From the NCBI GenBank assembly GCA_020849475.1, contig JADLGE010000057.1, forward strand, positions 1 to 64,000: a stretch of DNA of 64,000 nt, given 5' to 3'. The stretch comes from Gammaproteobacteria bacterium. Its GTDB lineage: Bacteria > Pseudomonadota > Gammaproteobacteria > Ga0077536. The position numbers and the translations under genes are program-made. Positions 2,211 to 62,304 of this stretch are shown here, piece after piece. The notes under the pieces were generated by a model, which saw only the letters and a program-made list of their open reading frames with translations, did no database searches and was not told the origin of the DNA. The number at the start of each line of letters is the position of its first letter. The stretch's first letter is position 1.

Positions 2211-2369
2211 GCAGCCTGTCGGACTTAGGACGAATCGGCTGCGGTGATGGGATAGCGGTCCATATGTGCGCGCCTTCTCGTTTGAGCCCCACTATTCGCC
2301 TCGAATGCGCACACATCTGTCCTCGCTTTCCCACCACCTCGCGACGATTCCCTAAGTCCGACAGGCTGC
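2211..2369. mobile_element. MITE-like element with 19-bp perfect terminal inverted repeats
   Basis: GCAGCCTGTCGGACTTAGG at 2211-2229 recurs as its exact reverse complement at 2351-2369, so a 159-bp segment has transposon-like ends and no convincing ORF inside. The sequence just inside each arm is also related (ACGAATCG against GAATCGTCGC). The right end covers the first base of the convergent CoA-transferase stop codon (TAG, 2369-2371). No target-site duplication is evident by eye and no transposase is nearby. It could instead be a long-stem intergenic repeat. Confidence 0.5.
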
Positions 2370-3550
2370 TAGCGCACTACGCCACTCTCGATCAAAGCAG
2401 CAATGCTGTCGGCCGCGTGCCCGAAGCGCGCCAGCACGGCCTCACTGTGTTCACCGATACGCGGCGGCGCACTGCGCACCGCGCCCGGCGTGCGACTCAA
2501 CTTGATGGCGATGCCCGGGCCGCGATAACCCTCGAACTCCACGCACATCTCGCGCTCGCGGGTGTGATCGAGCGCCAGCGCCTGTTCGACCGTCAGCACC
2601 GGCGCGCACGGCACACCGATACTCATCAGCCGCTCGAACAACTGCATGCCGTCGCGCGTTGCGAGCAGTTCAATCAGGCGCGGCCGCAGGCTGTCGCGAT
2701 GAGTCACGCGGTCGCGGTTCTTTCGGTAGCGCGGGTCGTCACACAGTGCCGGCTCGCCGAGTTCCGCGCACAGTGTGCCGAACTGGCGATCATTGCCGAC
2801 CGCGAGGAACAGCGGCACGGTGCCGGTCGGAAACAAGTCATAGGGCACGATGTTGGGATGACCATTGCCGGTGCGCGGCGCTTGACCGCCGTGCATGACA
2901 TTCGATACATGCGGATGCAATAACGCGATGGCAGTGTCGTAGAGCGTCGCTTCCAGGCGTTGGCCCTTGCCCGAGCGCTGGCGTTCGAGCAGCGCCAGCG
3001 TAATGCCGAGCGCGGCGTACATGCCGGTGGCGGTGTCGACCAGCGGCATGCCGACACGCGTCGCGCCACCGGCAGGTTCACCGTTGACACTCATGATGCC
3101 GGACATCGCCTGCAGCGCCGCGTCATAGCCCGGCAGGCCGCCGAACTCGCCGCTTTCGCCAAAGCCCGAGATGCGACAGTGCACGAGGCGCGGAAAGCGC
3201 TGCGCCATTTCATCGAAATCATTGATGCCCCACTTGCGCCAGGTACTCATCTTGAAGTTCTCGATGAACACATCCGCGTGTTCGAGCAACGAGAACAACA
3301 CCGCGATGCCTTCGGCGCGCGACAGGTCCAGCGCCAGATCCTGCTTGTTGCGATTCAGGCCGAGAAAATACGGCGCCACACCATCGATGAACGGTGGCCC
3401 GTAACCACGCGTGTCGTCGCCTTCAAAGGATTCGACCTTGATGACCTCAGCGCCATGATCGCCGAGCAATTGGCCGGAAAAAGGCCCGGCCAGCACCCGC
3501 GACGCGTCGATGACGACCGTGCCGGAAAGACATCCAGGGGAGAGTTTCAT
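2369..3550 (-). CDS. CaiB/BaiF family (class III) CoA-transferase
   Basis: Class III CoA-transferases move CoA between carboxylic acids in the cytosol, often activating a catabolic substrate. The protein (393 residues from the Met at 3550; an upstream Met at 3574 adds 8) shows the family signature early: DASRVLAGPFSGQLLGDHGAEVIKVE, then GDDTRGYGPPF, LNRNKQDLALDL and the FIENFKMSTW block. An Asp in 'GLPGYDAALQAMSGIM' matches the catalytic Asp region. Length is normal. The 3550 start fits the family N-terminus best, though no strong ribosome site is visible. It is divergent from the epoxide hydrolase gene. The substrate cannot be read from the sequence. Confidence 0.9.
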   Translation of the reverse strand: MKLSPGCLSGTVVIDASRVLAGPFSGQLLGDHGAEVIKVESFEGDDTRGYGPPFIDGVAPYFLGLNRNKQDLALDLSRAEGIAVLFSLLEHADVFIENFKMSTWRKWGINDFDEMAQRFPRLVHCRISGFGESGEFGGLPGYDAALQAMSGIMSVNGEPAGGATRVGMPLVDTATGMYAALGITLALLERQRSGKGQRLEATLYDTAIALLHPHVSNVMHGGQAPRTGNGHPNIVPYDLFPTGTVPLFLAVGNDRQFGTLCAELGEPALCDDPRYRKNRDRVTHRDSLRPRLIELLATRDGMQLFERLMSIGVPCAPVLTVEQALALDHTREREMCVEFEGYRGPGIAIKLSRTPGAVRSAPPRIGEHSEAVLARFGHAADSIAALIESGVVR

Positions 3551-3672
3551 GGGGGACACCGTGTCGTGAATCATCGGTCGTAGTGTGCCAAATTTCGCCG
3601 CCCAGGAAACCTTGCGCGCAGCCTGTCAGGCATGTCACCTTGACGACCGCAGCCTTGTTTCCGGAGCGCCCC

Positions 3673-4842
3673 ATGAGCAACATCACGCCTTTCCGTGTCG
3701 AGGTATCCGACGCAGAACTCGACGACCTGCGCGCACGCCTGCGGCGCACGCGCCTCGCGCCGGAGTTCGCTAACGACGACTGGCGTTATGGCACCCACGG
3801 CCCCTACCTGAAGGAATTTCTGCACTACTGGGAACACGACTACGACTGGCGCAAGCATGAGGCTGCCATCAATGCCCAGCCGCAGTTCATGACGCGCATC
3901 GATAACATCCCCATTCACTTCATCCACGCCAAGGGCAAGGGCCCCAGGCCAATACCCCTGATCCTGAGCCACGGCTGGCCGTGGACGTTCTGGGACTGGC
4001 ACAAGCTCATCGGCCCGCTCACCGACCCGGCCGCCCATGGCGGCGATGCCGCCGACGCTTTCGATGTGGTCGTGCCGTCTTTGCCGGGCTTCGCCTATTC
4101 CACTCCGCTCACCACCACCGGCATCAATTTCTGGCGCACCGCCGACCTGTGGGTCACGCTCATGCGCGAGGTGCTCGGCTACGACAAATTCGCCGCCGGC
4201 GGTGGCGACTGGGGCGCTCTCCTGACGACACAACTCGGCCATCGCCATGCCGAGCACCTGATCGGCATCTACCTGCACTTGATGGCGCCACTCGACATCT
4301 TCAATGCGCCATTTCCCGGTGCGGAGTTGTTCACGCCCGAAGAAGCCGAATGGCAACAGCGCAACGAGAAATTCTTCACGCGTGAATCGGGCTACTCGGC
4401 CATCCAGTCGACCAAGCCCCAGACCGTGGCGTTTGCACTCAACGATTCACCGGCCGGCCTCGCCGCGTGGATCATCGAGAAACGCCGCACCTGGAGCGAC
4501 TGCGGTGGCGATGTCGAGCGCCGCTTCAGCAAGGACGACCTCGCCACCACGCTCACCATCTATTGGATGACCCAGTGCTATGGCAGCTCGGCGCGCTACT
4601 ACTACGAGTGCGTGAACAATCCGTGGCGGCCGAGTCATGATCGTAAGCCAGTGGTGGAAGCACCTACCGGCGTCGGCGTGTTCCCGCGCGAAGTGGTGAT
4701 GCTGCCGCGCCGCTGGGCCGAGCAGTACTACAACTTGCAGCACTGGACGCAAATGAAATCCGGCGGTCATTTCGCGCCGATGGAAGAACCGCAGGCGCTC
4801 ATCGACGACCTCCGCGCGTTTTATCGGGGTCTGCGCAGATGA
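3673..4842 (+). CDS. epoxide hydrolase (EHN-type alpha/beta hydrolase)
   Basis: Soluble alpha/beta hydrolase of 389 residues with the N-terminal EHN domain (ITPFRVEVSDAELDDLRARL) typical of microsomal/juvenile-hormone-type epoxide hydrolases, which hydrolyse epoxides to diols. Visible elements: SHGWPWTFWDW (oxyanion HGWP motif), the nucleophile Asp179 in GGGDWGA, and His in the C-terminal SGGHFAPMEEP motif. The Met at 3673 has GGAG at 3663-3666 upstream; the frame is open further upstream but without family similarity. It is followed by a palindromic repeat and then the linalool dehydratase-like gene on the same strand, so a role in terpenoid or alicyclic epoxide metabolism is plausible but inferred. 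Confidence 0.9.
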   Translation: MSNITPFRVEVSDAELDDLRARLRRTRLAPEFANDDWRYGTHGPYLKEFLHYWEHDYDWRKHEAAINAQPQFMTRIDNIPIHFIHAKGKGPRPIPLILSHGWPWTFWDWHKLIGPLTDPAAHGGDAADAFDVVVPSLPGFAYSTPLTTTGINFWRTADLWVTLMREVLGYDKFAAGGGDWGALLTTQLGHRHAEHLIGIYLHLMAPLDIFNAPFPGAELFTPEEAEWQQRNEKFFTRESGYSAIQSTKPQTVAFALNDSPAGLAAWIIEKRRTWSDCGGDVERRFSKDDLATTLTIYWMTQCYGSSARYYYECVNNPWRPSHDRKPVVEAPTGVGVFPREVVMLPRRWAEQYYNLQHWTQMKSGGHFAPMEEPQALIDDLRAFYRGLRR

Positions 4843-4856
4843 TGCGTAATGATTTC

Positions 4857-4882
4857 GTAGGTGCGAATGAATTCGCACCTAC
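4857..4882. repeat. short palindromic repeat, family A (GTAGGTGCGAAT arms)
   Basis: A perfect 26-bp palindrome: GTAGGTGCGAAT, then GA, then ATTCGCACCTAC. It lies 14 bases after the epoxide hydrolase stop. Related copies occur at 19290, 24431, 33763 and 43812. It could act as a transcript-end hairpin. Confidence 0.8.
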
Positions 4883-4980
4883 CGTTCACGACCATGCGCC
4901 GACTCAGGAGATGACCCACCCCTGCCCGCTGGTCTAGACTCCGGTCAAACAACAAAGCCAGCAATCCACAGGGGGAGCCG

Positions 4981-6924
4981 ATGTCGACGCTCGATCATGA
5001 AGTCCTTGGCGAAACGAAACTGTTTCGCCCGGCCAACCAAGGCCCGGTGACGGCCGCGCGCCATCGTCGCAATCTCATGTGCTATGCACTGGTGTGCGCC
5101 CTGGGCCTGCTGCCGACCCTGCTCGGCGCCAGCGCCGGCTGGCGTGCGTTTGGCCTCGGTCTCATGGTGCCGGGCGGCGGCTTCGTTGCGGCGCTCGGCA
5201 TCGGCGGCGTGCTGGCCCTGGGCGCGACGCTCGCCCTGTTGTACCTGTCGCTCGTGACGTGGTTCTGGAACGGCATGATAGTCGCGCCCGTCGCCGTGTG
5301 GCTGGGCTCGGCCTGGATGGCCGGCGCCATGGCTGGCGAGTCGAGCTCCATGCTCGGCCTGCCGGCGACCGTGGCCACCATCGCCGCGATTTATTACTTT
5401 CGCCAACGCTCCCTCACGCGCCAACGCGCGGCCGATGAAGCACGTCTCATCGCACGCCAGGCATTCTTTGGCGATTCCCTCGCCGAAGTCACGGTCAGCG
5501 CCGCGGCCGAGCCCGTGACCGGCACACGCGAACTCTCGCCGCGCGATCTCGAAGCGCTGCGCTATGCCTTCGATCGTGCGCTGCAGCCAGTCGGTGAATT
5601 CAAGGGCTACACCATCATCGACCAATTCCAGCCGGCGGCGCTGCGTTATCAAATAAATCATCTCGGCTATGCGCTCGGCATGATGCAATGCCATTACACG
5701 CCGAGCTTTCACGGCTATCTCTCCCAGGCGCAGCGCAATCTCATCGACACTTACCGCGTCAAGCGGGTGTGGGATTACTGGGTGCTGGAGTCGATGTGGG
5801 GGCATCTCAATTTCAGCAATTTCGATCCAGCCGCCAAGGACAACATCATGTTGACCGGCTACTACGGCATGCAGGTCAATCAATACATGCTGGCGAGCGG
5901 CGACCGTCGCTATGCCGGGCCCGGCAGCCTGACCTTTCGTCTGAACGAGCAAACCGCGTATGCGCACGACGCGCACACCTTGGTCGATTCCATCCGCATG
6001 AATCACGCGCGTTCGGATTTCTGCCTGTTTGCCTGCGAGCCGAACTGGGTCTACCCGGTGTGCAATATGTACGGCATGTCGGCGCTCGCGAGTCACGACC
6101 GCCTGTTCGGCACCAATTACTGCGCCAGCATCCTGCCGCGCTGGATGGACGCGCTGCGCAGCGAATTCACCGACGCCAAGGGCACCATCATCGGCCTGCG
6201 CTCTTATCTCACCGGTCATGAGCTGCCGTTGTTCGCCGGCGAAGCGGGCGTCGCGCATTTCGCCAACATCTTTTCGACCACCCTCGGTCGACGGCTGTGG
6301 GCGGTGGGACGCAAGGAATTGTCGTTCTGCCTCGCGCCCGACGGTGAAGGCGGTCAGCGCCTCACCATTCCGCGCGAAGCCTTGAGCTTCATCGACACCA
6401 TCGACGTCGGCAATTACCGGCGCGGCATGTTGTTCGCGTACGCGGCCGTTGCCATGGCCAGTCGCGAGTTCGGTGACAACGAACTGGCCGAAGCCGCCAT
6501 CCGCTCGATGGAACTCGACTGCGGTCCGGCGCTGGACAACGGCGCCTTGTATTACGAACGCGGCTCAGGACTCGCCACGCTGTGGGCACTGGAAGCGCGC
6601 ATCATGCGCACCGGCGACTTCCACAACAGTTTCGTGGTGGGACCGCCGGCCAGCGTGTTCACGGGCCCGCTACTGGCCGACGCGCGTTATCCCGAAGTAC
6701 TGGTGGCAAAAGCCTTCAGCCATGGCGAGGATCTCGAACTGGTGCTGTATCCGGGCAAGCAGAGCGGTGTGCAGAATCTGGGCTTCGAGCGCCTGCGCCC
6801 GGGTCAGCGTTACGCGGTGGAAGGCATCGAGAACACCAGCGTGACCGCCGATGCGCAAGGCCGCGCGTCGCTGGCGGTGAACCTCTCCGGCCGCACCGCC
6901 CTGCGCCTGACGCCCAGTCACTGA
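4981..6924 (+). CDS. membrane-anchored linalool dehydratase/isomerase-like protein
   Basis: 647 residues behind a GGGGGAG ribosome site. Residues about 30-145 hold three or four hydrophobic segments. The region from about 200 to 560 resembles the linalool dehydratase/isomerase fold of Castellaniella defragrans, which interconverts linalool, geraniol and myrcene. Alignable blocks are [33 protein letters not shown], and DRLFGTNY followed by the WMDAL block. The two active-site cysteines keep their exact spacing (Cys352 and Cys361; C-E-P-x6-C). Where the known enzyme has a catalytic His in a KGH block, this protein has Tyr294. The C-terminal 80 residues look like a beta extension. The characterised enzyme is periplasmic and has no membrane anchor. 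Substrate and reaction here are open. The gene follows an epoxide hydrolase gene. Confidence 0.75.
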
Positions 6925-34897: not shown

Positions 34898-36193
34898 ATG
34901 CCGAAGGAGCTCCGCGTGAACATCATTCCCAGTGACCTCATCGCCCCCTTGTTCAACCCCGCCACGTTTGCCGAACGCGGCAAGGTCGACGAGCTGCTGG
35001 CGGCGGTGCGGCGCGACTATCCGCTGGTGCGCGCCGAGGTGCCGGGCTACGACCCGCACTGGATAGTCTGCCGCCATGCCGACATCCAGGAAGTGTCACG
35101 GCAGAACGAACTGTTCCATAACGCGGATCGTTCGGCGACCGTGATTCCGCAGATGGGCGAAGCGCTGGTGAGAGAATTCACCGGCGGCGACTACAACCTG
35201 TTCCGCTCGCTGGTGCAGCTGGATGGAGAAGATCACAAGCAGCACCGGCGGGTGCTGTTCCAGGCGCTGGGTTCACAAAGCGTGGCGCGCCTTGCTGACA
35301 GCGTGCGCGCCACCGCGAGCGCGCAACTCGACACGCTGCGCGCCGCCGGCGGCGAGCTCGATTGGGCCAAGGCGGTGGCGGCGCCCTATCCGCTGCGCGT
35401 GGTGCTGGATGTGATCGGCGTGCCGCGCGCCGACCATGCGCGCATGCTGGAACTGACCCAGTGGCTGTTCAGCTGGGCCGACCCGGACTTATGCCGGCCC
35501 GGCACCGATCCGTCCCATCCCGAGCAACAGCCGCGCACCTGGAAAATCGTCTTCGATGAATTCGACGAATATTTTTCCGCGTTGATTGCGGCGCGGCGGC
35601 GCGAGCCGCGCGACGACCTCGCCACTTTGCTCGCCAATGCCGAAGTCAATGGCGCAGCGATGGAGCACAGTCGCGCGATTTCCTATTTCGCCATCCTGGC
35701 GACCGCCGGCCATGACTCCACCGCCCACACCACCGCCACGGCGATGTGGACGCTCGCCGAACAGCCGGCCTTGCTGGCACAACTCAAGGCCGAGCCGACG
35801 CTGGTGCCGAAATTCGTCGAAGAAGCGATTCGCTGGACCACACCGGTCAAGCATTTCGTGCGTCACGCCACCGTCGACTGCACGCTGGCCGGCGAAAAGA
35901 TTGCGCGCGGTGATCGCCTGTATCTGTCCTATCCTTCAGGCAATCGTGATGAAGCGGAATTCGAACAGCCGTTCACGTTCCGGCTCGACCGCCAGCGCAA
36001 CCGTCATGTCGGTTTTGGTTATGGTGGTCATGTGTGCCTGGGCCAGCATCTCGCGCGCCTCGAAATGTGCGCACTGTGGGAGACACTGCTGCCGGCGCTG
36101 AGCGCGGTGGAGATGAGCGGCCCCGGGCAATTGATTGCGTCGGAGTTCGTGTCGGGGCCGAAGTCGGTGCCGATACGTTATCGACTCACTTAA
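34898..36193 (+). CDS. cytochrome P450
   Basis: 431 residues. I-helix ILATAGHDSTAHTTATAMW, K-helix EEAIRWTTPVKHFVRHA, and haem loop HVGFGYGGHVCLGQHLARLEM (Cys380). It is only distantly similar to the P450 at 30514 and shows the DRLYLSYPSGNRDEAEF block common in CYPs of steroid and terpenoid degraders. No redox partner is adjacent. The 3' end overlaps the convergent TetR gene by 8 bases. Confidence 0.93.
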   Translation: MPKELRVNIIPSDLIAPLFNPATFAERGKVDELLAAVRRDYPLVRAEVPGYDPHWIVCRHADIQEVSRQNELFHNADRSATVIPQMGEALVREFTGGDYNLFRSLVQLDGEDHKQHRRVLFQALGSQSVARLADSVRATASAQLDTLRAAGGELDWAKAVAAPYPLRVVLDVIGVPRADHARMLELTQWLFSWADPDLCRPGTDPSHPEQQPRTWKIVFDEFDEYFSALIAARRREPRDDLATLLANAEVNGAAMEHSRAISYFAILATAGHDSTAHTTATAMWTLAEQPALLAQLKAEPTLVPKFVEEAIRWTTPVKHFVRHATVDCTLAGEKIARGDRLYLSYPSGNRDEAEFEQPFTFRLDRQRNRHVGFGYGGHVCLGQHLARLEMCALWETLLPALSAVEMSGPGQLIASEFVSGPKSVPIRYRLT

Positions 36194-36863
36194 GTCGACG
36201 ACGGGCCGCGCCACCGGATTTGCCCGCCGTCGCGCCGAGCAGCGCGATGGCGTCGGCGAGCTGCTTGAAGAGCATGTCGAACGACAGCGCCGGATCTGCT
36301 TCGCGCGCGAGCACCGCGCCATCCACCACGGCCAGGGCAAAGCTCGCCCACTGCTCCGACACGCGCAACGCCTGCGCCGCTGTCATGGCTTCGCCTTCGG
36401 TCAGGAATGCCAGTTCAATCTGACGGCGCACACTGTCCCGACCCAGGGCACGCACGCGCTGCACCACCGCATTGGTCTCACTGTCGCCCTGAGTCACCAC
36501 CAGTGTGATGAGAATGCGTAGAAATTCGCGGTGCAGCGCGACTGTCTCGCCGGTGCGCGCCAGCACCCAGCGCAGGCGGGCCTGCGCCGAGCGATGGCGC
36601 GGCGCCTTGGCCAGCACCGCCTCGTGATGGTCGAAAAAGCGTTGTGCACCGCGCTCCATGAGCGCCGCCAACAGGCCGGCCTTGGAGCCGAAATGCCAGT
36701 AAATGGAGCTGACGTTGAGACCGGTAGCGTGGCTCAGGGCCGCGATACTGGTGCCGTCGTAGCCCTGGTTGGACATGATCTGGCCGGCGACGTCGAGGAT
36801 GTCATCGCGCGAACTCTGGCCGCGCGCGGTGCGCCAGCTCACTTTGCGTTGTTTATCGGACAT
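36186..36863 (-). CDS. TetR family transcriptional regulator
   Basis: 225 residues. The N-terminal HTH (about 17-65) reads SRDDILDVAGQIMSNQGYDG, then TSIAALSHATGLNVSSIYWHF with GSKAGLLAALME; the ligand domain is helical with no family-specific motif. It is divergent from the extradiol dioxygenase operon across a 153-bp gap that contains a 16-bp palindrome, so it is the likely repressor of that operon, with a pathway metabolite as ligand (inference). Confidence 0.92.
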   Translation of the reverse strand: MSDKQRKVSWRTARGQSSRDDILDVAGQIMSNQGYDGTSIAALSHATGLNVSSIYWHFGSKAGLLAALMERGAQRFFDHHEAVLAKAPRHRSAQARLRWVLARTGETVALHREFLRILITLVVTQGDSETNAVVQRVRALGRDSVRRQIELAFLTEGEAMTAAQALRVSEQWASFALAVVDGAVLAREADPALSFDMLFKQLADAIALLGATAGKSGGAARRRLK

Positions 36864-36911
36864 CGCGGCGAGTCTACGGCCGCCCGCGCCACCGTCAAGC
36901 GCCGCCGAGGG

Positions 36912-36970
36912 TTGACAGCCCGGGCCGCCCTCTCGATATCATGCGCTGACTTTCTGAAACGATCGCTTCA
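36912..36970 (+). promoter_or_regulatory. promoter and palindromic operator upstream of the ring-cleavage operon
   Basis: TTGACA at 36912 and TATCAT at 36937 (19 bp apart; GATATC gives 17) resemble -35 and -10 boxes. Downstream lies TGAAACGATCGCTTCA (36955-36970), a 16-bp palindrome with a single mismatched pair. A site over the start region is where a TetR repressor would block transcription of the dioxygenase operon. Confidence 0.5.
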
Positions 36971-37016
36971 TTTTTGAAGTCGACCGTCACGCTCATACAA
37001 GCCGGGGGAGGCAGCC

Positions 37017-37901
37017 ATGCACAGCGTCAAAGAACTGGGGTATATCGTCATCGAGGCGTCGAATCTCGATGCCTGGAAGACCTTCGCGGTGGACCTGCTG
37101 GGGCTCATGCCCGGCGAGCAGACCACGCACGGCCTCGCGCTGCGCTTCGATGAACGCGCGCACCGCATGCTCATCGAAGCCGGTCCGGCCGACGACATGG
37201 CGGCCATCGGCTATGACTGCGGTGACGATGCGAATCTCGACGCCATCACCGCGCAGTTGCGCGGCCACGGCTTCGCGGTCGAAGAAGGCGGCGCGGAACT
37301 CACGGCGCGGCGCAAGGTGCGACGCCTGCTGGTAAGCCGCGACCCCGATGGCAACCGCGTCGAGCTGTATGTCGACCTCGCGCGGGCCGCCACGCCGTTT
37401 CATTCCAGCCTGATACCGTCAGGCTTCGTGACCGGCAGCGGCGGTGCGGGTCATGCCTTTCTGCCCACGCCCGCGCGCCAGCCCATGCTCGATTTCTACG
37501 CGCTGCTCGGCTTTCGCCTCTCGGACTACATTCAACAGGAAATCGCGCCCGGCATGCTGGTCGACGCGGCGTTCACCCATTGCAATCCGCGTCATCACAC
37601 GCTGGCCTTCGCGGCGCTGCCATCACCGAAGAAAATGCATCACTTCATGATTGAAGCGAGCGCGCGCGTCGATGTCGGCCGCGCCTATGATCGCGTGCAG
37701 AACGCCAAGGCGCCGCTGGCGATGAGCATAGGCATGCATCCCAACGACCTCATGTTTTCGTTCTACGTCACCACACCGTCGGGTTTCGCCATCGAACTTG
37801 GCGCCGATGGCCGCCAGATTCTCGATGAGGACAGCTGGCAGGTGGTGACCTATGACTGTCTGAGCACCTGGGGCCACCGTCCCATGGCGCCAGGCGCCTG
37901 A
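37017..37901 (+). CDS. extradiol (meta-cleavage) dioxygenase, BphC/HsaC type
   Basis: Fe(II) type I extradiol dioxygenase, two VOC modules in 294 residues, GGGGGAGG ribosome site. The metal ligands are visible at the spacing of 2,3-dihydroxybiphenyl dioxygenases: His146 (GGAGHAFLP), His209 (KMHHFMIE) and Glu260 (GFAIELGA), with a Tyr near VVTYD. N-terminal module: ELGYIVIEASNLDAWKTFAVDLLGL. It opens a catechol ring next to the hydroxyls; the product would go to the hydrolase encoded next. HsaC of steroid degradation is one possible counterpart; biphenyl-like or other bicyclic catechols are equally consistent. Confidence 0.9.
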   Translation: MHSVKELGYIVIEASNLDAWKTFAVDLLGLMPGEQTTHGLALRFDERAHRMLIEAGPADDMAAIGYDCGDDANLDAITAQLRGHGFAVEEGGAELTARRKVRRLLVSRDPDGNRVELYVDLARAATPFHSSLIPSGFVTGSGGAGHAFLPTPARQPMLDFYALLGFRLSDYIQQEIAPGMLVDAAFTHCNPRHHTLAFAALPSPKKMHHFMIEASARVDVGRAYDRVQNAKAPLAMSIGMHPNDLMFSFYVTTPSGFAIELGADGRQILDEDSWQVVTYDCLSTWGHRPMAPGA

Positions 37902-37951
37902 GTAGTTGCATCTCACGTCCAACGCCGACTGACATTGAAGGAACAACGCCC

Positions 37952-38794
37952 ATGAGCATCACCCGCGATTCCACCAGCCGCACCGTCAAGACCGCCGACT
38001 GGAACATCCACTATCACGAAGCCGGCAGCGGCCATCCGATCATCCTGCTGCACGGCTCGGGCCCGGGCGCGACCGGCTGGAGCAACTTCTCCAACAACGT
38101 ACCGGGACTCGCCGAACGCTTCCGCGTGCTGGCGGTGGACATGCCGGGCTGGGGCGCCTCCGATCCCTGCCCCGTCGAACGCATGAACCATGTCGACGCC
38201 ACGTTGCAGTTCATGGATGCACTCGGCATCGAGAAGGCCGCCGTGATCGGCAACTCCATGGGCGGCGTCAACGCGCTGCGCCTGGCGGTGACGAATCCCG
38301 AACGCGTTTCGCATCTCATCACCATGGGCGCGCCGGCCAATCGTAATCCCAAGCTGTTCGGCGCCGGCGATGGCCCGAGCGAGGGCCTGAAGATACTGAT
38401 CGAGGCCTATCGCACGCCGACCGCCGAGGCCATGCGTCGACTGGTGGAGATCATGTGTTTCGACAAGCGCTTCGCCAATGAAGACCTGTGTCGCGCACGC
38501 TCGGAAGCGGCCAGCGCCCAGCCCGAGCACCTGAAGAATTTTCTCGCCGGTCTGCCCAAGGGTTCGCCGGTGCCGCAGATGGCAACGCTCGAACAAATGA
38601 TGGGCATCAGCGCGCCGACCATGCTGATTCATGGCCGCGATGATCGCGTGGTTCATTACGAGCACTCCCTGCACCTGGTCGCGCACATTCCCAATGCGCG
38701 CCTGGTGCTGATCAACCGCTGCGGCCATTGGGCGATGATCGAACACGCCGCGGAATTCAATCGTCTGGTCAGCGACTTCGTGGCCAACAACTGA
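37952..38794 (+). CDS. meta-cleavage product hydrolase (BphD/HsaD type)
   Basis: C-C bond alpha/beta hydrolase of 280 residues. Triad: Ser102 (VIGNSMGG), Asp230 (LIHGRDDRVV) and His259 (NRCGHWAMIE). The family loop LLHGSGPGATGWSNF and VDMPGWGASD match the MCP hydrolases, which split the ring-opened product of the preceding dioxygenase to a dienoate and an acid. It follows the dioxygenase after 50 bases and precedes an HsaA-like flavoprotein gene. Confidence 0.93.
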   Translation: MSITRDSTSRTVKTADWNIHYHEAGSGHPIILLHGSGPGATGWSNFSNNVPGLAERFRVLAVDMPGWGASDPCPVERMNHVDATLQFMDALGIEKAAVIGNSMGGVNALRLAVTNPERVSHLITMGAPANRNPKLFGAGDGPSEGLKILIEAYRTPTAEAMRRLVEIMCFDKRFANEDLCRARSEAASAQPEHLKNFLAGLPKGSPVPQMATLEQMMGISAPTMLIHGRDDRVVHYEHSLHLVAHIPNARLVLINRCGHWAMIEHAAEFNRLVSDFVANN

Positions 38795-38804
38795 GAGCGC
38801 CGCC

Positions 38805-39974
38805 ATGCACGATGCCGTCAAACACATTCATGATTCAGGCGCGCTGCTGCGCGCCGAGCACCGCGCCTGCGATGCGGCCGGCAAGCTCACCGACAAGACC
38901 GTCGAGGTGCTCAGGCAATCGCAGGGCATGAAGCTCCTGCAGGCGCGCAGCCACGGCGGCCTCGAGGCCGACATTCGCGACTTCTTTGCATGGGTGCGCG
39001 CGGTCGCGCAGTACAACCCCTCGGCGGGCTGGGTGGCGGGCGTGGTCGGCGTGCATCCGTGGGAGATTGCGCTGTGCGACGGCAAGCTGCAGGACGAAAT
39101 CTACGGGCGCGACGCCAGCACCTGGGTGGCCTCGCCCTATGCGCCTTTTGGTCGCGCGCGGCGCGTGGAAGGCGGCTTCATCCTGAATGGTGAATGGCCC
39201 TACTCGACCGGCACCGATCATTGCACCTGGATAGTGCTCGGCGGCATGGTGATGGACGCCGACGGCAATGTACCGATGCCGCCCGATGTGCGGCATTTCT
39301 TTTTGCCGCGCAGCGATTATCAGATCATCGAAGACACCTGGCAGGTGATGGGCCTGGTCGGCACCGGCAGCAAGAACGTGCGGGTGGTCGACGCCTTCGT
39401 GCCCGATCATCGCATCGTCGGCCACGTGGCCTTGAGCGAAGGCGAATACAGGGGTCGGCGCGCCGACACGCCGCTCTATCACCTGCCGTTTGGCTGTGTG
39501 TTCTCGGCGGCGATTTCATCGGGCACCTTCGGCATCGCGCGTGGCACCATCGATGCCTACCGCGAACAGTTGCAGAGCCGCGTGTCGGTGTCGGGCGTGG
39601 TCGGCAAGAGCGACCCGTTTCAGCAGGAGGCGCTCGCTGAAGCGGAAGCGGACCTCGATGCCGGCATCGCCCATGTCGATGTCATGACCATGGATCTGCT
39701 CGCGCGCATTGCCGCGGGCCAGCCCATGAGCGCCGCCGTACGCCTCGACTACCGCCGCAACCAGGTGCGCGCCGTGCAGCGCGTGCTGGCGTCGGTCGAC
39801 AAGCTGCTGGCACGCGCCGGATCACCGTCGGTATGGACCACCCGCGCACTGGAGCACTACTGGCGCGATCTGCGCACCGCCGGCACCCATATCTGCAACG
39901 TCACGGATTCCATCTACCCGGCGTGGGCGGCGCAGGCCTTGAACACCGGCGCACTGGTGAACGCGTTTTATTGA
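38805..39974 (+). CDS. flavin-dependent hydroxylase, acyl-CoA dehydrogenase fold (HsaA-like)
   Basis: 389 residues. The fold is that of acyl-CoA dehydrogenase with the C-terminal type-2 domain found in two-component hydroxylases such as HsaA or p-hydroxyphenylacetate monooxygenase: NPSAGWVAGVVGVHPWEIALC, GGFILNGEWPYSTGTDHCTWIVLGG, TWQVMGLVGTGSKNVRVVDAFVPDHR and YRRNQVRAVQRV. With the dioxygenase and hydrolase upstream it would ortho-hydroxylate a phenol to the catechol to be cleaved. It needs a flavin reductase, none of which is in the operon. Confidence 0.85.
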   Translation: MHDAVKHIHDSGALLRAEHRACDAAGKLTDKTVEVLRQSQGMKLLQARSHGGLEADIRDFFAWVRAVAQYNPSAGWVAGVVGVHPWEIALCDGKLQDEIYGRDASTWVASPYAPFGRARRVEGGFILNGEWPYSTGTDHCTWIVLGGMVMDADGNVPMPPDVRHFFLPRSDYQIIEDTWQVMGLVGTGSKNVRVVDAFVPDHRIVGHVALSEGEYRGRRADTPLYHLPFGCVFSAAISSGTFGIARGTIDAYREQLQSRVSVSGVVGKSDPFQQEALAEAEADLDAGIAHVDVMTMDLLARIAAGQPMSAAVRLDYRRNQVRAVQRVLASVDKLLARAGSPSVWTTRALEHYWRDLRTAGTHICNVTDSIYPAWAAQALNTGALVNAFY

Positions 39975-54778: not shown

Positions 54779-55861
54779 TCACGGCATGATGGCGCGCGCG
54801 GCGAAACCCATGCCGGTGGAAAGCGCCGGAGAATTACGGAAAGACTGTGGGGGCATTTTCGGCCGTGCCTGCGGTGCAACCGTGGTCGCGGTGCTGGCCG
54901 GCGCGCTCGGCATTGGTTGACTCACGATCACTTCCGGACCGGCGGCGGGCCCAGGATTCGGCACACGGCGGCCGGCCTGCTCGAGCATGGCCTGTGAGTA
55001 GGCGATACCGTTAAGAATCTCCGGCAGGGCCGGGCTGCGCTGTCGTGCAACACTGAACAGTTGCAGGGAGCCAGCATAGTTGCCGGCCTCCTGCTCAACC
55101 ACCGCACGCGCAATCCAGGGTTCGGCCTTGTCGGCATCGAGCGAACAGGCGCGCGCCAGATAGGCGCGTGCGTTGTCTAGATTGAGCTGCATGAGTTCCG
55201 CCACGCCCGCCCAGTAAAACGGCAGCCAGTTGTCGTGGTCGATTTCCAGCAGCGGCGCGAGCGTCAGCAGGGCCGAACCGTAATCGCCATTGGCAATCTG
55301 CAGGCGCGCGGTGATCTGGCGCAGGTTCTGGTGATTGGGCAGGCGCGCGAGCGCAGTGCGTGCCGCCATGAGCGCGCCGCGGATGTCGCCGGATTTTTCA
55401 CGTTGCAGGATGCGCGGCACTTGGCGATCGAGATCGCTGCTGGCGGCGAGCTTGCCGTCCTTGCGCATGTGCGCGAAGCGTTCGGTGGCGGCCTTGTGAT
55501 CGTCCGTGCTGACTTTCTCTTCCGGGCCCAGCACCAGTTCACCGCCGTCTTCGAGCGGGATGCCGGCCACGGCTTTTTCAGACATCACGGCCGGGCCGCC
55601 TTCGTTGGGCGTGAGGCCCGCCTCGGGCACGACTGGCGGCAGCGGCGCGAGGCTTTCGGCAGATGCGGCGGACGGTGCGCTCGTCACTGCCGGCGCGGCG
55701 TTGGCGGCCGCATTGGCATTGACGCCCGCGGCCGGCGCGACGGCCATATTCTGATTGAGACCCGCGGCGGGCGGCGCCTGGGCATCCAGCGCCCACGCCT
55801 GCCCCGCGCCCATCACGGCGCACAGAGCCAAGCTCAAAGCGGTGTGCTTGTGCGACTTCAT
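54779..55861 (-). CDS. periplasmic TPR protein of the pilus operon (MshN-like)
   Basis: 360 residues: signal peptide (HTALSLALCAVMGAGQAWA), an Ala/Pro-rich linker (about 26-110), then TPR-type helices (about 140-300: RGALMAARTALARLPNHQNL, YGSALLTLAPLLEIDHDNWL, AYLARACSLDADKAEPWI) and a Pro-rich tail. MshN-like proteins help assemble MSHA pili. It is the last gene of the operon, 1 base after the secretin stop, and has no fixed enzymatic role. Confidence 0.7.
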   Translation of the reverse strand: MKSHKHTALSLALCAVMGAGQAWALDAQAPPAAGLNQNMAVAPAAGVNANAAANAAPAVTSAPSAASAESLAPLPPVVPEAGLTPNEGGPAVMSEKAVAGIPLEDGGELVLGPEEKVSTDDHKAATERFAHMRKDGKLAASSDLDRQVPRILQREKSGDIRGALMAARTALARLPNHQNLRQITARLQIANGDYGSALLTLAPLLEIDHDNWLPFYWAGVAELMQLNLDNARAYLARACSLDADKAEPWIARAVVEQEAGNYAGSLQLFSVARQRSPALPEILNGIAYSQAMLEQAGRRVPNPGPAAGPEVIVSQPMPSAPASTATTVAPQARPKMPPQSFRNSPALSTGMGFAARAIMP

Positions 55862-55862
55862 G

Positions 55863-57476
55863 TCAGTAGCCTCCCTGCGCGAGCGGCGTGCCTCGTGACA
55901 AGTTCGGCCCGACCAGCTTGGGCGTCATGAAGATCACGAGTTCCTGTTTGCTGTGCTGGTTGTAGCGGCCTTTGAACAGATTGCCGGCAACAGGAATATC
56001 GCTCAAACCCGGCACACCGCGCGTGGTGTCGCTGTTGGTATCGGAGATGAGTCCACCGATGACGACGGTCTCACCACTCTGCGCACGCACCAGTGACGTC
56101 GACTGGCGGATGTCGAGATTGGGCGCGGTGCTCTGCACCTGGCCATTGTCACCCACCACCTGCGTGACGCTCGAAACGCGCGTGATGACGGGATAAACAT
56201 CAATCATGATCATGCCGTCGTTGGAGATCTGCGGGGTCAGGCCGAGCACGATACCCTCGGTCACCACCTGCGGCACGTCGCTGGAGGCAGTGGTGGCGCC
56301 GGCCGCCGAAGTATCGGTCACCTGCTCACGACGGAAGAAGGTTCTGTCGGTGCCGACCTTGATCATGCCGGCCTGGTTATTGAGCGTGCGGATATGCGGC
56401 TGCGAAACCACGCGCACATCGCCCTGCTGCTTGAGCGCATCGATGACCGCCGACAGGCGAATCGCGCCGCTGGTCGCCACATCGAGCAATCCTAAGGAAA
56501 ACACGTTGGCCGCGGGCGTTACGCCGCCGGCCGGCTGTTTGACGATGCTCGAGGTATTGAAATCAATCTGCTTGCCGCTGTGAAACTGCGACATGGCGCG
56601 CTGCCAGTCGATGCCGAGCGCGAAGTCATCGTTCAAAGTGACTTCGACGATGCGCACTTCGATGTCGACCTGACGCTGCACGGCTTCGTTGACGTCACCT
56701 AGATAACGCCCGACTTCGCGCACACGCCGCATCTGGTCGGTGACCATGATGGTGCCGGCGGTGCGATTGACCACCAGCCGCGCATTGGGCGAGAGCATGG
56801 AACGCAGCTGGGCTTCGAGTTCATCCCAGAACGGCACACTGCCTTGCTGGCTGACCGACACGCTGCCGCCACCCTGCTCGCTGCCGCCGCCGCTATTGCC
56901 TGCCGCGCCGCCGCCGCTGCTGCCGGTGCCACCACTGCCGCCGCCACCGCTGCTGGAAGCGGCGCTGGTGGTGCTGGATGAGGTGGCGATGGCTTCGCCC
57001 TGACGCACCACGCGGATGTAGTCGACCGAGAACGTGCGCGTGGCGGTGGAGCGCACACGCACCAGGCCGCCATCACGTTCCCAGTGATAGCCGAGACTGC
57101 CGAGCATCGCTTCCATGGCCTGATCGAACGGCAGGTCGTGAAATTCAACGTTGATGCTGCCGGTCACATCCTTGTCGACCACGATATTGAGCTTGTAGGC
57201 GCGTGCGAACAGCGCCAGCACCTGGTCGATGGGAAAGTCCCGCGCGAAGAAGCTGTAAAGCTGTTCGGTGGTCTGGGTCGGCAGTTGATCGGTGTCGCTG
57301 GCCGGCATCACCAGTCGCGCCGCTATCGGTGGTGGCAATACGGCCGGCGCCGTGGGCAGCGGTGTGACGGTGGCCACGGGCGCCACGATTGGCGGCGTTT
57401 GGCGGACCGGCGCGCTGCCGCAGCCGCCGAGCATCAGCGCGGCCATGGCCCAGGCAAATCTGTGCGGAGAATTCAT
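55863..57476 (-). CDS. mshL: MSHA-type secretin (MshL-like outer-membrane pore)
   Basis: 537 residues. A lipoprotein signal ends MLGGCG (Cys19). An N-terminal STN-like domain (FFARDFPIDQVLALFARAYKLNIVVDKDV) and a secretin N1-type domain are separated by a long Ser/Gly-rich linker (about 165-205). The secretin core has the signature VVSQPHIRTLNNQAGMIKVGTD, GIVLGLTPQISNDGMIMIDVYP, TSLVRAQSGETVVIGGLISD and GVPGLSDIPVAGNLF, then LVIFMTPKLV. It forms the outer-membrane channel of the pilus. GAGGGATGA precedes the ATG. Confidence 0.93.
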   Translation of the reverse strand: MNSPHRFAWAMAALMLGGCGSAPVRQTPPIVAPVATVTPLPTAPAVLPPPIAARLVMPASDTDQLPTQTTEQLYSFFARDFPIDQVLALFARAYKLNIVVDKDVTGSINVEFHDLPFDQAMEAMLGSLGYHWERDGGLVRVRSTATRTFSVDYIRVVRQGEAIATSSSTTSAASSSGGGGSGGTGSSGGGAAGNSGGGSEQGGGSVSVSQQGSVPFWDELEAQLRSMLSPNARLVVNRTAGTIMVTDQMRRVREVGRYLGDVNEAVQRQVDIEVRIVEVTLNDDFALGIDWQRAMSQFHSGKQIDFNTSSIVKQPAGGVTPAANVFSLGLLDVATSGAIRLSAVIDALKQQGDVRVVSQPHIRTLNNQAGMIKVGTDRTFFRREQVTDTSAAGATTASSDVPQVVTEGIVLGLTPQISNDGMIMIDVYPVITRVSSVTQVVGDNGQVQSTAPNLDIRQSTSLVRAQSGETVVIGGLISDTNSDTTRGVPGLSDIPVAGNLFKGRYNQHSKQELVIFMTPKLVGPNLSRGTPLAQGGY

Positions 57477-57510
57477 CAGGTCATCCCTCTCGAAAAACGA
57501 GTCCCTCTAC

Positions 57511-57526
57511 CCGATAGCGCTATCGG
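57511..57526. repeat. 16-bp perfect palindrome in the pilus operon
   Basis: CCGATAGC-GCTATCGG lies in the 105-bp gap between the PilP/MshK-like gene and mshL. It may be an mRNA hairpin that adjusts secretin expression; no partner copies were seen. Confidence 0.4.
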
Positions 57527-57581
57527 CGCGCGGCGAGGGAAGCTTTAGGGCTGACTTTTGACGGAGGCGCCTAAGCGCCAT

Positions 57582-58148
57582 TCAACGGACGGGCAATCTC
57601 AGCAGCAAGGGTTCGGCGGCGTCTGCGCCACGGCCGAGCGCCACGGAGGTCGGAGCTATCTTCAGCACCGGGCGGCCGCTGACCTTGTCACCGACGCGCA
57701 CCATGTGACCGTCGATGACGGCAATCTGGGCGGACGGCGTGCTCAACACGGCTTCCAGCATCGGCACCGCCGGCAGGGTTTCGACCACAGGCGCCTCGAC
57801 CACCGGCACGGGTGCGTCGGGCACGCTCACCTGCGGCGCCGCGACGGCCGCCGGGCCGAAGGGGTCACGCACCGGCGAGTGATCCCAGCGCAACTGCGTG
57901 GGCGTGCGCGGCGTATCCGTGCTGGGTTCGATGATCAGGGTATCGCCGCTGGTGGCGTCGACCGCGGCGGGGTCAACACTCGCTGCGGCGTCTTGCGTCA
58001 CTTCACTCACGACTGCCACCGGCGCTGGCGGCTCGGCGCTGACGACGCCGCCGGGAAAGAATATCGAGCGCATTTGCACCCACCACAGCGCCGCCATGCC
58101 GAGCACGAGCCCGCCGACCACCCACGGATTACGCAGCAGCTTGTTCAT
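57582..58148 (-). CDS. MshK/PilP-like inner-membrane lipidless assembly protein
   Basis: 188 residues: one N-terminal membrane helix (NPWVVGGLVLGMAALWWVQM), a low-complexity Pro/Ala/Asp-rich linker (about 35-125) and a short C-terminal beta domain (LEAVLSTPSAQIAVIDGHMVRVGDKVSGRPVLKI) like the homology region of MshK/GspC/PilP. Start overlaps the upstream stop by 4 bases (ATGA). It would link the inner-membrane platform to the secretin. Confidence 0.7.
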   Translation of the reverse strand: MNKLLRNPWVVGGLVLGMAALWWVQMRSIFFPGGVVSAEPPAPVAVVSEVTQDAAASVDPAAVDATSGDTLIIEPSTDTPRTPTQLRWDHSPVRDPFGPAAVAAPQVSVPDAPVPVVEAPVVETLPAVPMLEAVLSTPSAQIAVIDGHMVRVGDKVSGRPVLKIAPTSVALGRGADAAEPLLLRLPVR

Positions 58149-58903
58149 GGTTGCCCGCCATCGACGCTGACCTGATTGCTGACCAGCGACGGCGGCGCGT
58201 CCTCGGCCGCGTCTTCGTCGGCGCCTGGTTCCTGCGTCGGCGCGCGGTCGAAGCCGTCACGCGTGCGCATCCACACCCGATATTCGAAGTTCATGCGGGT
58301 CATGCCTCGGCCTTCGCTCTCGCCATAGGCCGCCACCAGCTCACCCGCCCAGCGCGCTTCGCCGAGTTGGCGCAGCAAGGCCATGCCATCGGCAAATACC
58401 TGTGCGCGACTGCCTTCATGGGCCTGCACCGTCAGCAGTAGCGGCACCGCCAACAGGCCCGGGCGCGATTCCAGCCGCTGTTCTTCATTGACGGTATAAG
58501 TGAGATCGATGGCGCGCGCGGCGCCACTGGCCTGCAGTTCATGCAGCCAGGTAGCGAGCGAGCCGTAGTCCGGTATGAGCTTGCGCTCGGCTTCGTCTAT
58601 CTTGTCTTCGAGATGCTGGTATTGCAGGCGTAGCACCGTGGCCCGCAAGTCTTCCAGCGCCAGACGCAAACTCACTTCACGCTGGATGGCATCGTTGTAA
58701 TCGTTGGCGGTCTGCAACTGCACGACCATCGTCCAGCACGTGAGGGCGATGGCGGAGCTCAGCAATAGACCCAGCAAAGCCTTGGTGTAGAGATTGCGCC
58801 CGAACCAGTCCGCCGCTTCGCTGACGCGCTGCGCATTGCGGATACGCCAATTGGCGGTGGGGACGGCGCGGCCGTCGCGACGACGATCGGCGGCGGTCGT
58901 CAT
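58145..58903 (-). CDS. PilO/MshJ-like pilus assembly protein
   Basis: 252 residues from the Met at 58903, overlapping the upstream stop (ATGA). A single membrane helix (about 42-62, LLGLLLSSAIALTCWTMVVQ) is followed by a coiled coil (ALEDLRATVLRLQYQHLEDKIDEAERKLIP) and a ferredoxin-like domain (LHELQASGAARAIDLTYTV ... ALLRQLGEARW), the PilO layout. A C-terminal acidic tail (EPGADEDAAEDAP) is extra. Confidence 0.75.
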   Translation of the reverse strand: MTTAADRRRDGRAVPTANWRIRNAQRVSEAADWFGRNLYTKALLGLLLSSAIALTCWTMVVQLQTANDYNDAIQREVSLRLALEDLRATVLRLQYQHLEDKIDEAERKLIPDYGSLATWLHELQASGAARAIDLTYTVNEEQRLESRPGLLAVPLLLTVQAHEGSRAQVFADGMALLRQLGEARWAGELVAAYGESEGRGMTRMNFEYRVWMRTRDGFDRAPTQEPGADEDAAEDAPPSLVSNQVSVDGGQP

Positions 58904-60285
58904 TGCAGTTGGCCGCGCATGGCAAAGCGAATCGGGCCACTGGCGGCCGCGCCGCTGCGCAATTGCTGTAGCCAGGTCTGGCGCCAGCCGGGATTCACAT
59001 GCGCGTTCCACGGCGCGCGTTCCAAAGTCGCGCTCAGGCCTTCGAGGGTCGGCAAGGTCACTTCCAGACGTGTGTCGGCCATGCCTTCAAGACGGAAATC
59101 CCAGGCCTCGTCACCACGCCGGATGCTGGCCTGGGTGAGTGTCAATGTCGCGGGCAGGTCGTGCGCCAACTGGTGCATGAAGCTGGCCGGCAGAGGCGCA
59201 AGTCCTGGCGTCAACTGCCGCAGTCGATCGCGTTGCGCCATGAGCTTGGCGTAGTCGGTGTCGAGCTGCGCGCTTTCGGCTTCAAGGGCCGGCAGCGCCG
59301 CCAAGGCCAGGCCGCCGCGGTTTGCCACACGCGCATTGAACTGCGTGACCCACGCCACGCTGGCGAGCGCCACCACCCACATCACCGCGGTGGCCAGCAT
59401 CGCAGCGCGCGTCAGCGCGCGCTGCGACAGCGCCCGTTGGCGAAAGCGCGGCACGAGGTTGCCGAGCACACTCAAGTCGACCTTGGCGGCGCCACGTGCC
59501 CAGGTGAATTCCGAGTCGTCCACCGCCACTTCGCGCAGCGGCATTTCGAATGACGCACCGACGCGCGCCGGCATCTCGCCATCGAGCGCGAAAATGCAGG
59601 TCGCATCGATGGACTTGCCAATCTTCTGCTTGGCGAACAGCGCCGTGCGATTGGTTTCCAGCAACACGCGCTCATCGGGACTGTCGTGCTCGCCGATGGC
59701 CACCGTGCGTGCAAACACCACGCACGGGTCGGCACGCACCACGCACAGCATCGCGCGCTCACGCAGCACCACGGTCGCAAGCACCACGTCTTGCGGCGTG
59801 GTGCAGGCCGGCTGCGCCATGCGCGCCACCAGTTCGGCCAGCGGCACGATGGAGCGCACCTGCAGGAAATGCTCTTCGCAAATGCGAATCATGGCGTCGA
59901 CGAGGCGCTTGGGCGCCAGATGCAGCAGCACCGTGCGGCCGGTCTGCGCGCGCTCGTCGGCAATCGCTCGATAAGTCCACGCGGCCGGCTCGCTGAAGCT
60001 CTTGTCGGCCTCCACGCGGCGCGCCACCATGCGTTCAAGGTCGGCTGCCGAGGTAGGCGGCGCTTCGAAGGACAGATGACCGCTGTCGTCGTTGGCGAAA
60101 ACTATCGCTATCGGCCCCGACGGCAGGGCCAGCGCAGCGTGCGCGGTGCTGACCGCTTCGGCAAAGCCCGCCAGCGAATCAACCGTCTCGGCGGCGTGAT
60201 AAACCGCCACCACCTTGCCACGCTGCAAACGGACGGCGCGAAACTCGCCAAATACCCAGCTTATGACGCCGACCAGTTTGCTCAC
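58900..60285 (-). CDS. PilM-PilN-type fusion (MshI/GspL-like)
   Basis: 461 residues, GTG start at 60285 overlapping the prepilin stop (GTGA). Residues about 1-270 are an actin-like PilM domain (RAVRLQRGKVVAVYHAAE, PLAELVARMAQP, VLATVVLRERAMLCVV). A membrane helix (about 296-317, MLATAVMWVVALASVAWVTQF) and a periplasmic PilN-like part (SAQLDTDYAKLMAQRDRLRQL, TLTLTQASIRRG) follow. It would form the inner-membrane platform with the PilO-like protein in one chain, as in GspL/MshI. Confidence 0.75.
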   Translation of the reverse strand: MSKLVGVISWVFGEFRAVRLQRGKVVAVYHAAETVDSLAGFAEAVSTAHAALALPSGPIAIVFANDDSGHLSFEAPPTSAADLERMVARRVEADKSFSEPAAWTYRAIADERAQTGRTVLLHLAPKRLVDAMIRICEEHFLQVRSIVPLAELVARMAQPACTTPQDVVLATVVLRERAMLCVVRADPCVVFARTVAIGEHDSPDERVLLETNRTALFAKQKIGKSIDATCIFALDGEMPARVGASFEMPLREVAVDDSEFTWARGAAKVDLSVLGNLVPRFRQRALSQRALTRAAMLATAVMWVVALASVAWVTQFNARVANRGGLALAALPALEAESAQLDTDYAKLMAQRDRLRQLTPGLAPLPASFMHQLAHDLPATLTLTQASIRRGDEAWDFRLEGMADTRLEVTLPTLEGLSATLERAPWNAHVNPGWRQTWLQQLRSGAAASGPIRFAMRGQLQ

Positions 60286-61088
60286 GGCGCGCTCCACGAG
60301 AACACCGGCGTCGCGCCGCCAGAAGATACGTAACTGAGCTCACGCGGAGCCGTGACCAGCACCGCGCGCTCCAGCGCACCGGCAGGAAACGGCGGCTTGC
60401 GCAGCGACACCTTGCTGCCCTTCAAGAGGTAGCGCGTGATGCCCGTGCCGCCCCCGGCGCTGACCGCGGGCAGGGAAATCGCACCTCTCGCTTCTATGCT
60501 GTAACCGACCGCGCTGGTGAATTGATTGGTGAGCAGCACCGGCAGGAACCAGCTGCCGAGATGGATGCGTTGCACGCGCACGCGCGCGCCTTCCTTGACG
60601 GTCGCGGCGGCGGTCTGATCCCAGATGGCATTGAAGGCCGCGGCCGTGGTTGGCGCCGCCAGTGCATTGCGCGTGAGATCCGACACAATCATGATGCGCG
60701 GCGAGACCGGCGCCGTGGTGCGGCCGTTGGTCTGCGTGTATCCCGCGAACGCGGTGGCGGTGGTGGTGAAGAAACGCGGGTCGACGTAGTAGCCGCGTCT
60801 GAAGCCGCGCTCGTTGAGATTGACCTTGTTGCTGCTCATGCTGGTCACGCCGGCCAGCGCCGCCACCCAGCCAGCGGCATTGGGAATGCGCTTGTTGGCA
60901 GTGGTATAGGTATCGAGCGCGCCAGCCAGCGCCGTCAGATCCTTGCCTTCGGCCTCCATCACGGCTTCATCGACACCCTTCACCACGTTCGGCACCAGCA
61001 CCGCGGCCAGCGTCGAAATAATGGCCAGCACGCCGATCATTTCGATCAACGTGAAGCCGCGAGCGGTGCGTGTCGCGGTGCGGTTCAT
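60282..61088 (-). CDS. type IV prepilin-like protein
   Basis: 268 residues. An N-terminal prepilin signal with cleavage site RG|FTLIEMIGVLAIISTLAAVL, Glu at position 5 of the mature protein, and a hydrophobic helix. A large globular domain follows (KDLTALAGALDTYTTANKRI, GGGTGITRYLLKGSKVSL). Longer than typical pilins (about 150), so it may be a pseudopilin or a specialised subunit. Start overlaps the upstream GspF-like stop (ATGA). Confidence 0.85.
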   Translation of the reverse strand: MNRTATRTARGFTLIEMIGVLAIISTLAAVLVPNVVKGVDEAVMEAEGKDLTALAGALDTYTTANKRIPNAAGWVAALAGVTSMSSNKVNLNERGFRRGYYVDPRFFTTTATAFAGYTQTNGRTTAPVSPRIMIVSDLTRNALAAPTTAAAFNAIWDQTAAATVKEGARVRVQRIHLGSWFLPVLLTNQFTSAVGYSIEARGAISLPAVSAGGGTGITRYLLKGSKVSLRKPPFPAGALERAVLVTAPRELSYVSSGGATPVFSWSAP

Positions 61089-62287: not shown

Positions 62288-62304
62288 GGCGCGCGACTCG
62301 TCGG

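Follow-up and report, generated by a model that had tools for sequence, protein, structure and literature searches.

Known enzymes of the LDI fold

To our knowledge, two enzymes of the linalool dehydratase/isomerase (LDI) fold have been characterized so far, namely LDI itself and the linalool isomerase Lis. LDI (LinD of Castellaniella defragrans 65Phen, PDB 5hlr and 5g1u) is a soluble periplasmic protein, whose own features are a signal peptide, the histidine of a KGH block, dehydratase activity and a capping disulphide. The Lis protein of Thauera linaloolentis 47Lol (ENO87364, 644 aa) has four predicted N-terminal helices and resembles LDI in its C-terminal part only (PMC4791888). Its activity, which depends on a reductant, was measured in the inner-membrane fraction, and an inner-membrane location with a cytoplasmic catalytic domain has been published for it (PMC4791888). 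The enzyme isomerizes geraniol and linalool without enantiomer specificity, both linalool enantiomers being formed from geraniol; as it was inactive after heterologous expression in E. coli, Lis was assigned on the basis of enrichment and mass spectrometry (PMC4791888).

While Thauera is a betaproteobacterium, the gene considered here comes from a member of the Gammaproteobacteria (contig JADLGE010000057.1); the window, i.e., the whole stretch of DNA analyzed, is 64,000 nucleotides long. The first-pass annotation of this DNA took the soluble periplasmic protein for the only characterized enzyme of the fold, which is wrong, Lis being bound to the inner membrane, and implied that the fusion of membrane helices to an LDI domain was new, although the T. 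linaloolentis enzyme with the same architecture had been characterized in 2016 (PMC4791888). The features discussed below are collected in Table 1.

Table 1. Features of the lis-type locus and of related loci in the same genome (positions refer to the window unless a locus is named).
Feature	Position	Strand	Basis
lis-type gene for a predicted membrane-anchored isomerase of the LDI family, 647 aa	4981..6924	+	ORF, PF18566, identity to Lis, clade support
Shine-Dalgarno-like GGGGGAG	4971..4977	+	sequence
Hydrophobic block at the N-terminus (residues about 32-142) with about four predicted membrane helices	5074..5406	+	hydropathy, low-confidence model, published Lis helices
Ldi catalytic domain, predicted to be of the (alpha/alpha)6 type, residues 222-529	5644..6567	+	Pfam, PDB profile, Foldseek
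C-terminal beta domain, residues about 558-647	6652..6921	+	models; extends past end of LDI match
Val260, aligned with the LDI cysteine of the KCKRVW motif (that Cys absent here)	5758..5760	+	alignment
Tyr294, site of the LDI KGH histidine (H129); Trp in Thauera Lis	5860..5862	+	alignment
Gln298, one helical turn past Tyr294; His in Thauera Lis	5872..5874	+	alignment
Cys352, aligns with LDI C171	6034..6036	+	alignment
Cys361, aligns with LDI C180	6061..6063	+	alignment
Epoxide hydrolase (EHN + Abhydrolase_1) upstream of lis	3583..4842	+	domain matches
26-bp palindrome GTAGGTGCGAATGAATTCGCACCTAC, REP-like dispersed repeat	4857..4882	.	between epoxide hydrolase and lis
Class III (CaiB-type) CoA-transferase	2369..3574	-	sequence matches
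Paralog in the same genome, full-length Lis type, Trp-His	G000:C10:60924-61847 (L001/L040)		61% identical to window protein
atuE-atuA-biotin carboxylase-carrier-carboxyltransferase cluster	L060, G000:C9:95000-114000		sequence matches

The gene and its product

The open reading frame runs uninterrupted from an ATG at 4981 through 647 codons to a stop codon ending at 6924. Met1 is invariant in an alignment of nine Lis sequences, and the relatives match both the start and the full length; an antisense frame overlapping the gene (4945-6258) is without support. The frame at 4981-6924 is real. The sole Pfam match of its product is Ldi (PF18566, E = 1.9e-86, residues 222-529), which scores 290.9 bits against a curated cut-off of 26.1 and covers 316 of the 318 profile positions. 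The LDI chains of the PDB were matched as well, with E = 2.6e-10 by the single sequence and E = 1.1e-31 by a family profile.

Our scan of genome contigs recovered the T. linaloolentis contig (L006, NZ_AMXE01000039.1). Between residues 19 and 647 of the window protein, 62% of the positions are identical to Lis, a similarity at the level of orthologs. Broken down by region, the identity is 44% (membrane block), 66% (catalytic domain) and 71% (tail). In the tree the two proteins fall into one clade (support 100/98), distant from LDI. They are alike in length (647 vs 644 aa), in the succession of membrane block, LDI domain and beta tail, in both cysteines and in a KGH position without histidine. 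With LDI the window protein shares both catalytic cysteines and, as predicted from homology, the fold of the catalytic domain; unlike LDI, it begins with a membrane block and has no periplasmic signal, and its similarity to LDI is much lower than that to Lis. Judged by its sequence, it is thus a close full-length relative of the known Lis and no new architecture.

The N-terminal part is distinctly hydrophobic (GRAVY +0.83 for residues 1-142 vs -0.17 for the remainder), and hydrophobic segments lie at about 32-50, 56-87, 84-102 and 99-117. An extra helix from about residue 126 was seen in a low-confidence model only, and four is the likely number of membrane helices, as published for Lis. Two AlphaFold predictions were made (full length and residues 178-647), both with nine close sequences as input and both with pLDDT 53, a low score that the small input probably explains. 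When the low-confidence model (pLDDT 53) was submitted to Foldseek, the first 27 matches were all LDI chains (E = 2e-8); the (alpha/alpha)6 fold of the catalytic domain is implied by the sequence homology to LDI. Only the tail (about 558-647), which is all beta, was modelled with confidence (pLDDT about 72-93); it is also found in Thauera Lis, to which residues 531-647 are 71% identical.

The anatomy given by the first-pass annotation is therefore correct in its parts. Membership in the LDI family follows from the PF18566 score far above the cut-off, the profile search that it had suggested as a check having returned a significant Ldi match. The N-terminal helices fused before the LDI domain are seen both in the hydropathy profile and in the end-to-end alignment with Lis, the beta-rich tail in the structure models, and the two cysteines, Tyr294 and the epoxide hydrolase gene ahead of lis (3583-4842, plus strand) are where it had placed them.

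Active-site residues

Cys352 and Cys361, whose spacing of nine is kept, align with C171 and C180 of LDI and are invariant in every member sampled, through to the C. defragrans enzyme (these two residues and H129 are numbered by counting along chain 5g1u_A). In LDI, the active sites are situated between subunits. The KGH position is occupied by Tyr294, and the reading of the first-pass annotation holds here as far as the alignment is concerned; the unusualness that it implied does not, since Lis itself has Trp. Among 25 sequences compared, the histidine is kept only in LDI and in one distant relative (L037), with Trp or Tyr elsewhere, so that in this alignment its loss is a trait of the entire Lis branch. 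As Lis has Trp at position 294, the missing histidine alone does not imply another substrate.

The same residue bears on the question of whether the protein could combine dehydratase and isomerase activities, as C. defragrans LDI does, and form or hydrate myrcene. Such an activity would agree with the family and with both catalytic cysteines; however, the KGH histidine that is absent here (H128 in crystal numbering) was counted among the key residues of LDI in recent modelling (PMC12455561), the protein groups with Lis, which is without (de)hydratase activity (PMC6013536), and it is membrane-anchored with no periplasmic signal. We regard this bifunctional activity as improbable. The absence of the histidine, considered together with the lack of dehydratase activity in Lis, leads us to predict an isomerase without dehydratase activity rather than a new reaction.

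A catalytically dead or repurposed paralog might be suspected from the second copy in the genome and from the absence of a histidine at position 294. Against this stand both cysteines and the motif CEPNW.YPVCN, which are intact, and the whole-length conservation in relatives from several genera, which make it hardly credible that the protein has lost its function or changed it in this way.

The LDI cysteine of the KCKRVW motif is replaced by Val260. We take this cysteine to be a partner in the disulphide capping the LDI channel; if it is, the valine fits a reducing cytoplasmic location. Asp38 and Tyr44 of LDI precede the alignable region, the profile match beginning at chain residue 60.

As to the significance of the Lis-type proteins, they are present in 16 of the 36 genomes analyzed from the organism's own family, and they show the KGH position to lack its histidine throughout the Lis branch; this set bears on the unsettled mechanism of LDI and offers candidates for biocatalysis. 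Besides them, there is a remote PF18566 group of about 550 aa (L003, L028, L034, L029, L030, L035, L036, L038, and L039), seemingly without a membrane block, whose aligned members have both cysteines and one member of which lies in the same genome (C104).

Proposed function

The relationship to Lis suggests that the window protein is probably an inner-membrane isomerase of tertiary and primary allylic terpenols (of the linalool/geraniol kind, EC 5.4.4.4), which would employ cysteine acid/base chemistry and pass its product to the acyclic terpene utilization (Atu) pathway. Its N-terminal helices, about four in number, would serve as an anchor in the inner membrane, where the hydrophobic alcohol partitions, with the (alpha/alpha)6 LDI domain and the beta domain facing the cytoplasm. 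The enzyme would interconvert a tertiary allylic terpene alcohol dissolved in the membrane, linalool being the likeliest, and its primary allylic isomer, geraniol. To this end, an active-site cysteine should protonate the leaving hydroxyl of the tertiary alcohol, an allylic cation or a thioether intermediate would follow, and water would then be re-added at the primary carbon, i.e., at the opposite end of the allyl unit. The reverse reaction should also run, and in vitro Lis favors this direction, from geraniol to linalool. The catalytic steps are borrowed from proposals made for LDI, in which a cysteine was proposed as the protonator of linalool (PMC6013536). In vivo, the primary alcohol would be oxidized and subsequently degraded via the Atu pathway.

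Core genes for such a route are present in the genome. The cluster on C9 is a probable acyclic terpene utilization operon: its AtuE homolog is 51% identical to AtuE of Thauera, the 45 other crotonases reaching at most 36%, and its AtuA was matched with E = 2e-146. With the atu core cluster in the same genome, geraniol produced by a Lis would have an onward route. Within the organism's own family, AtuA occurs in 11 of the 16 genomes that have a Lis-type gene vs 4 of the 20 that do not (the genomes are not independent).

Several points count against the proposed role, among them the inactivity of heterologously expressed Lis and the resulting basis of its assignment (see above). In Thauera, lis adjoins atuCFE, whereas here the atu cluster is on a separate contig and the window gene is not beside it. 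AtuA is absent in four of the five own-family genomes that have the type of the window protein (Tyr-Gln, see below) only. Finally, a paralog in the same genome, which has the Trp-His pair of Thauera Lis, could be the true linalool isomerase.

Trp-His and Tyr-Gln types

In contrast to Lis, where positions 294 and 298 are Trp and His, a pair that neither defines the family nor is known to be essential, the window protein has Tyr and Gln. Among the sampled members of the close Lis group, Trp-His and Tyr-Gln were found seven times each, with no mixtures, while the sister group at 40% identity has Trp-Gln. The Tyr-Gln members were not recovered as a single clade in the tree, so that these two residues may have been exchanged repeatedly. 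The genome itself contains one Tyr-Gln copy (in the window), one Trp-His copy (C10) and a distant third member on C104; a genome of the same genus, G002, likewise has one Tyr-Gln and one Trp-His copy.

It is conceivable, though rather unlikely, that the Tyr294-Gln298 enzymes perform the same chemistry on another tertiary allylic alcohol and feed a pathway other than Atu. Candidate substrates, to be taken as equally tentative, are nerolidol/farnesol, 2-methyl-3-buten-2-ol/prenol or an oxidized terpenol. The strict split of the pair in the close group points in this direction, as does the presence of one copy of each type in two genomes, which would be expected under divided labor. Within the own family, moreover, the 10 genomes with a copy of the Trp type all have AtuA vs one of the five with Tyr-Gln only, an association with Fisher p = 0.004 when counted by genome but p = 0.14, not significant, when counted by genus; as relatives are not independent, this evidence for another substrate is weak. 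The Tyr-Gln genes also sit among those of LLM flavoenzymes, FMO/BVMO-like enzymes and Rieske oxygenases; however, these neighbors have no fixed order, and no conserved synteny was found around the Tyr-Gln lis genes. Besides, the members were not recovered as one clade, and LDI accepts a broad range of alpha-methyl-allyl alcohols (PMC6013536, PMC12455561), so that two residue changes need not alter the substrate. On balance, we doubt that the Tyr-Gln enzymes are a functionally distinct sub-branch of Lis, with a substrate other than linalool and a non-Atu route, and that organisms with both types divide the substrates between them.

The first-pass annotation had suggested that the reaction or substrate may differ because of the missing histidine. 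The latter is no argument, Lis having Trp, but the distribution of AtuA over the two types lends the idea some weak support, and the substrate may be a longer terpenol or some other tertiary allylic alcohol. With Trp-His and Tyr-Gln copies paired in one genome, the determinants of the substrate can be tested in a simple way.

Genomic neighborhood

Unlike the window gene, the C10 paralog stands in an operon-like row, together with thiolases, a biotin-dependent carboxylase and a PPDK-like protein, which is common to G002. The row (L040:881-11601, also L048, G002:C189) is shared within the genus and begins with lis, followed by an SCPx-like thiolase, a short PPDK-like protein, a biotin carrier, biotin carboxylase, an OadA/PycB-like carboxyltransferase, a thiolase, and an SDR. 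In the genome studied here it is accompanied by divergent TetR, Rv3169-like and APH-like genes, and it is not the canonical Atu set.

No epoxide hydrolase was found beside the other Lis genes in any of the loci fetched. The palindrome GTAGGTGCGAATGAATTCGCACCTAC, which separates the epoxide hydrolase gene from lis, folds strongly (z = -5.8) and has about 100 sites in the genome, whereas a reversed control pattern has none. As the pairing occurs at no other Lis locus fetched and a dispersed 26-bp hairpin lies between the two genes, a functional link of the epoxide hydrolase to lis was rejected. As for the CaiB-type CoA-transferase, a 50% identical counterpart adjoins a Lis relative of 40% identity (L052) and a remoter one (32%) adjoins another Tyr-Gln gene; it may, as a guess, be a CoA-activation partner.

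A steroid side chain, also named in the first-pass annotation, was considered as a substrate, the enzyme then isomerizing a tertiary 25-OH to a primary 26-OH. An LDI-like enzyme was once proposed in cholesterol degradation by this very analogy (PMC3691188), and genes for P450s and for HsaA/C/D-like meta-cleavage enzymes lie at 30-40 kb of the window. However, 25-hydroxysterols have no allylic system, while the alpha-methylallyl motif is essential for LDI substrates (PMC6013536); lis is at least 24 kb away from these Hsa-like and P450 genes and shares no operon with them, and its product is 62% identical to a linalool enzyme. With neither an allylic system nor linkage, this very improbable function was rejected.

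Further catabolic genes lie elsewhere in the window. The meta-cleavage cluster (36189-39971) consists of TetR, extradiol dioxygenase, HsaD-like hydrolase and HsaA-like oxygenase genes. A broader catabolic region (24578-54246), recognized partly by eye, encodes a PQQ alcohol dehydrogenase, two P450s, LLM flavoenzymes, a BVMO/FMO-like enzyme, acyl-CoA dehydrogenase-like proteins and an old yellow enzyme. It is followed at 54782-63999 by a row resembling type II secretion or type IV pilus genes (GspD/E/F/G-like), recognized by eye from the translations.
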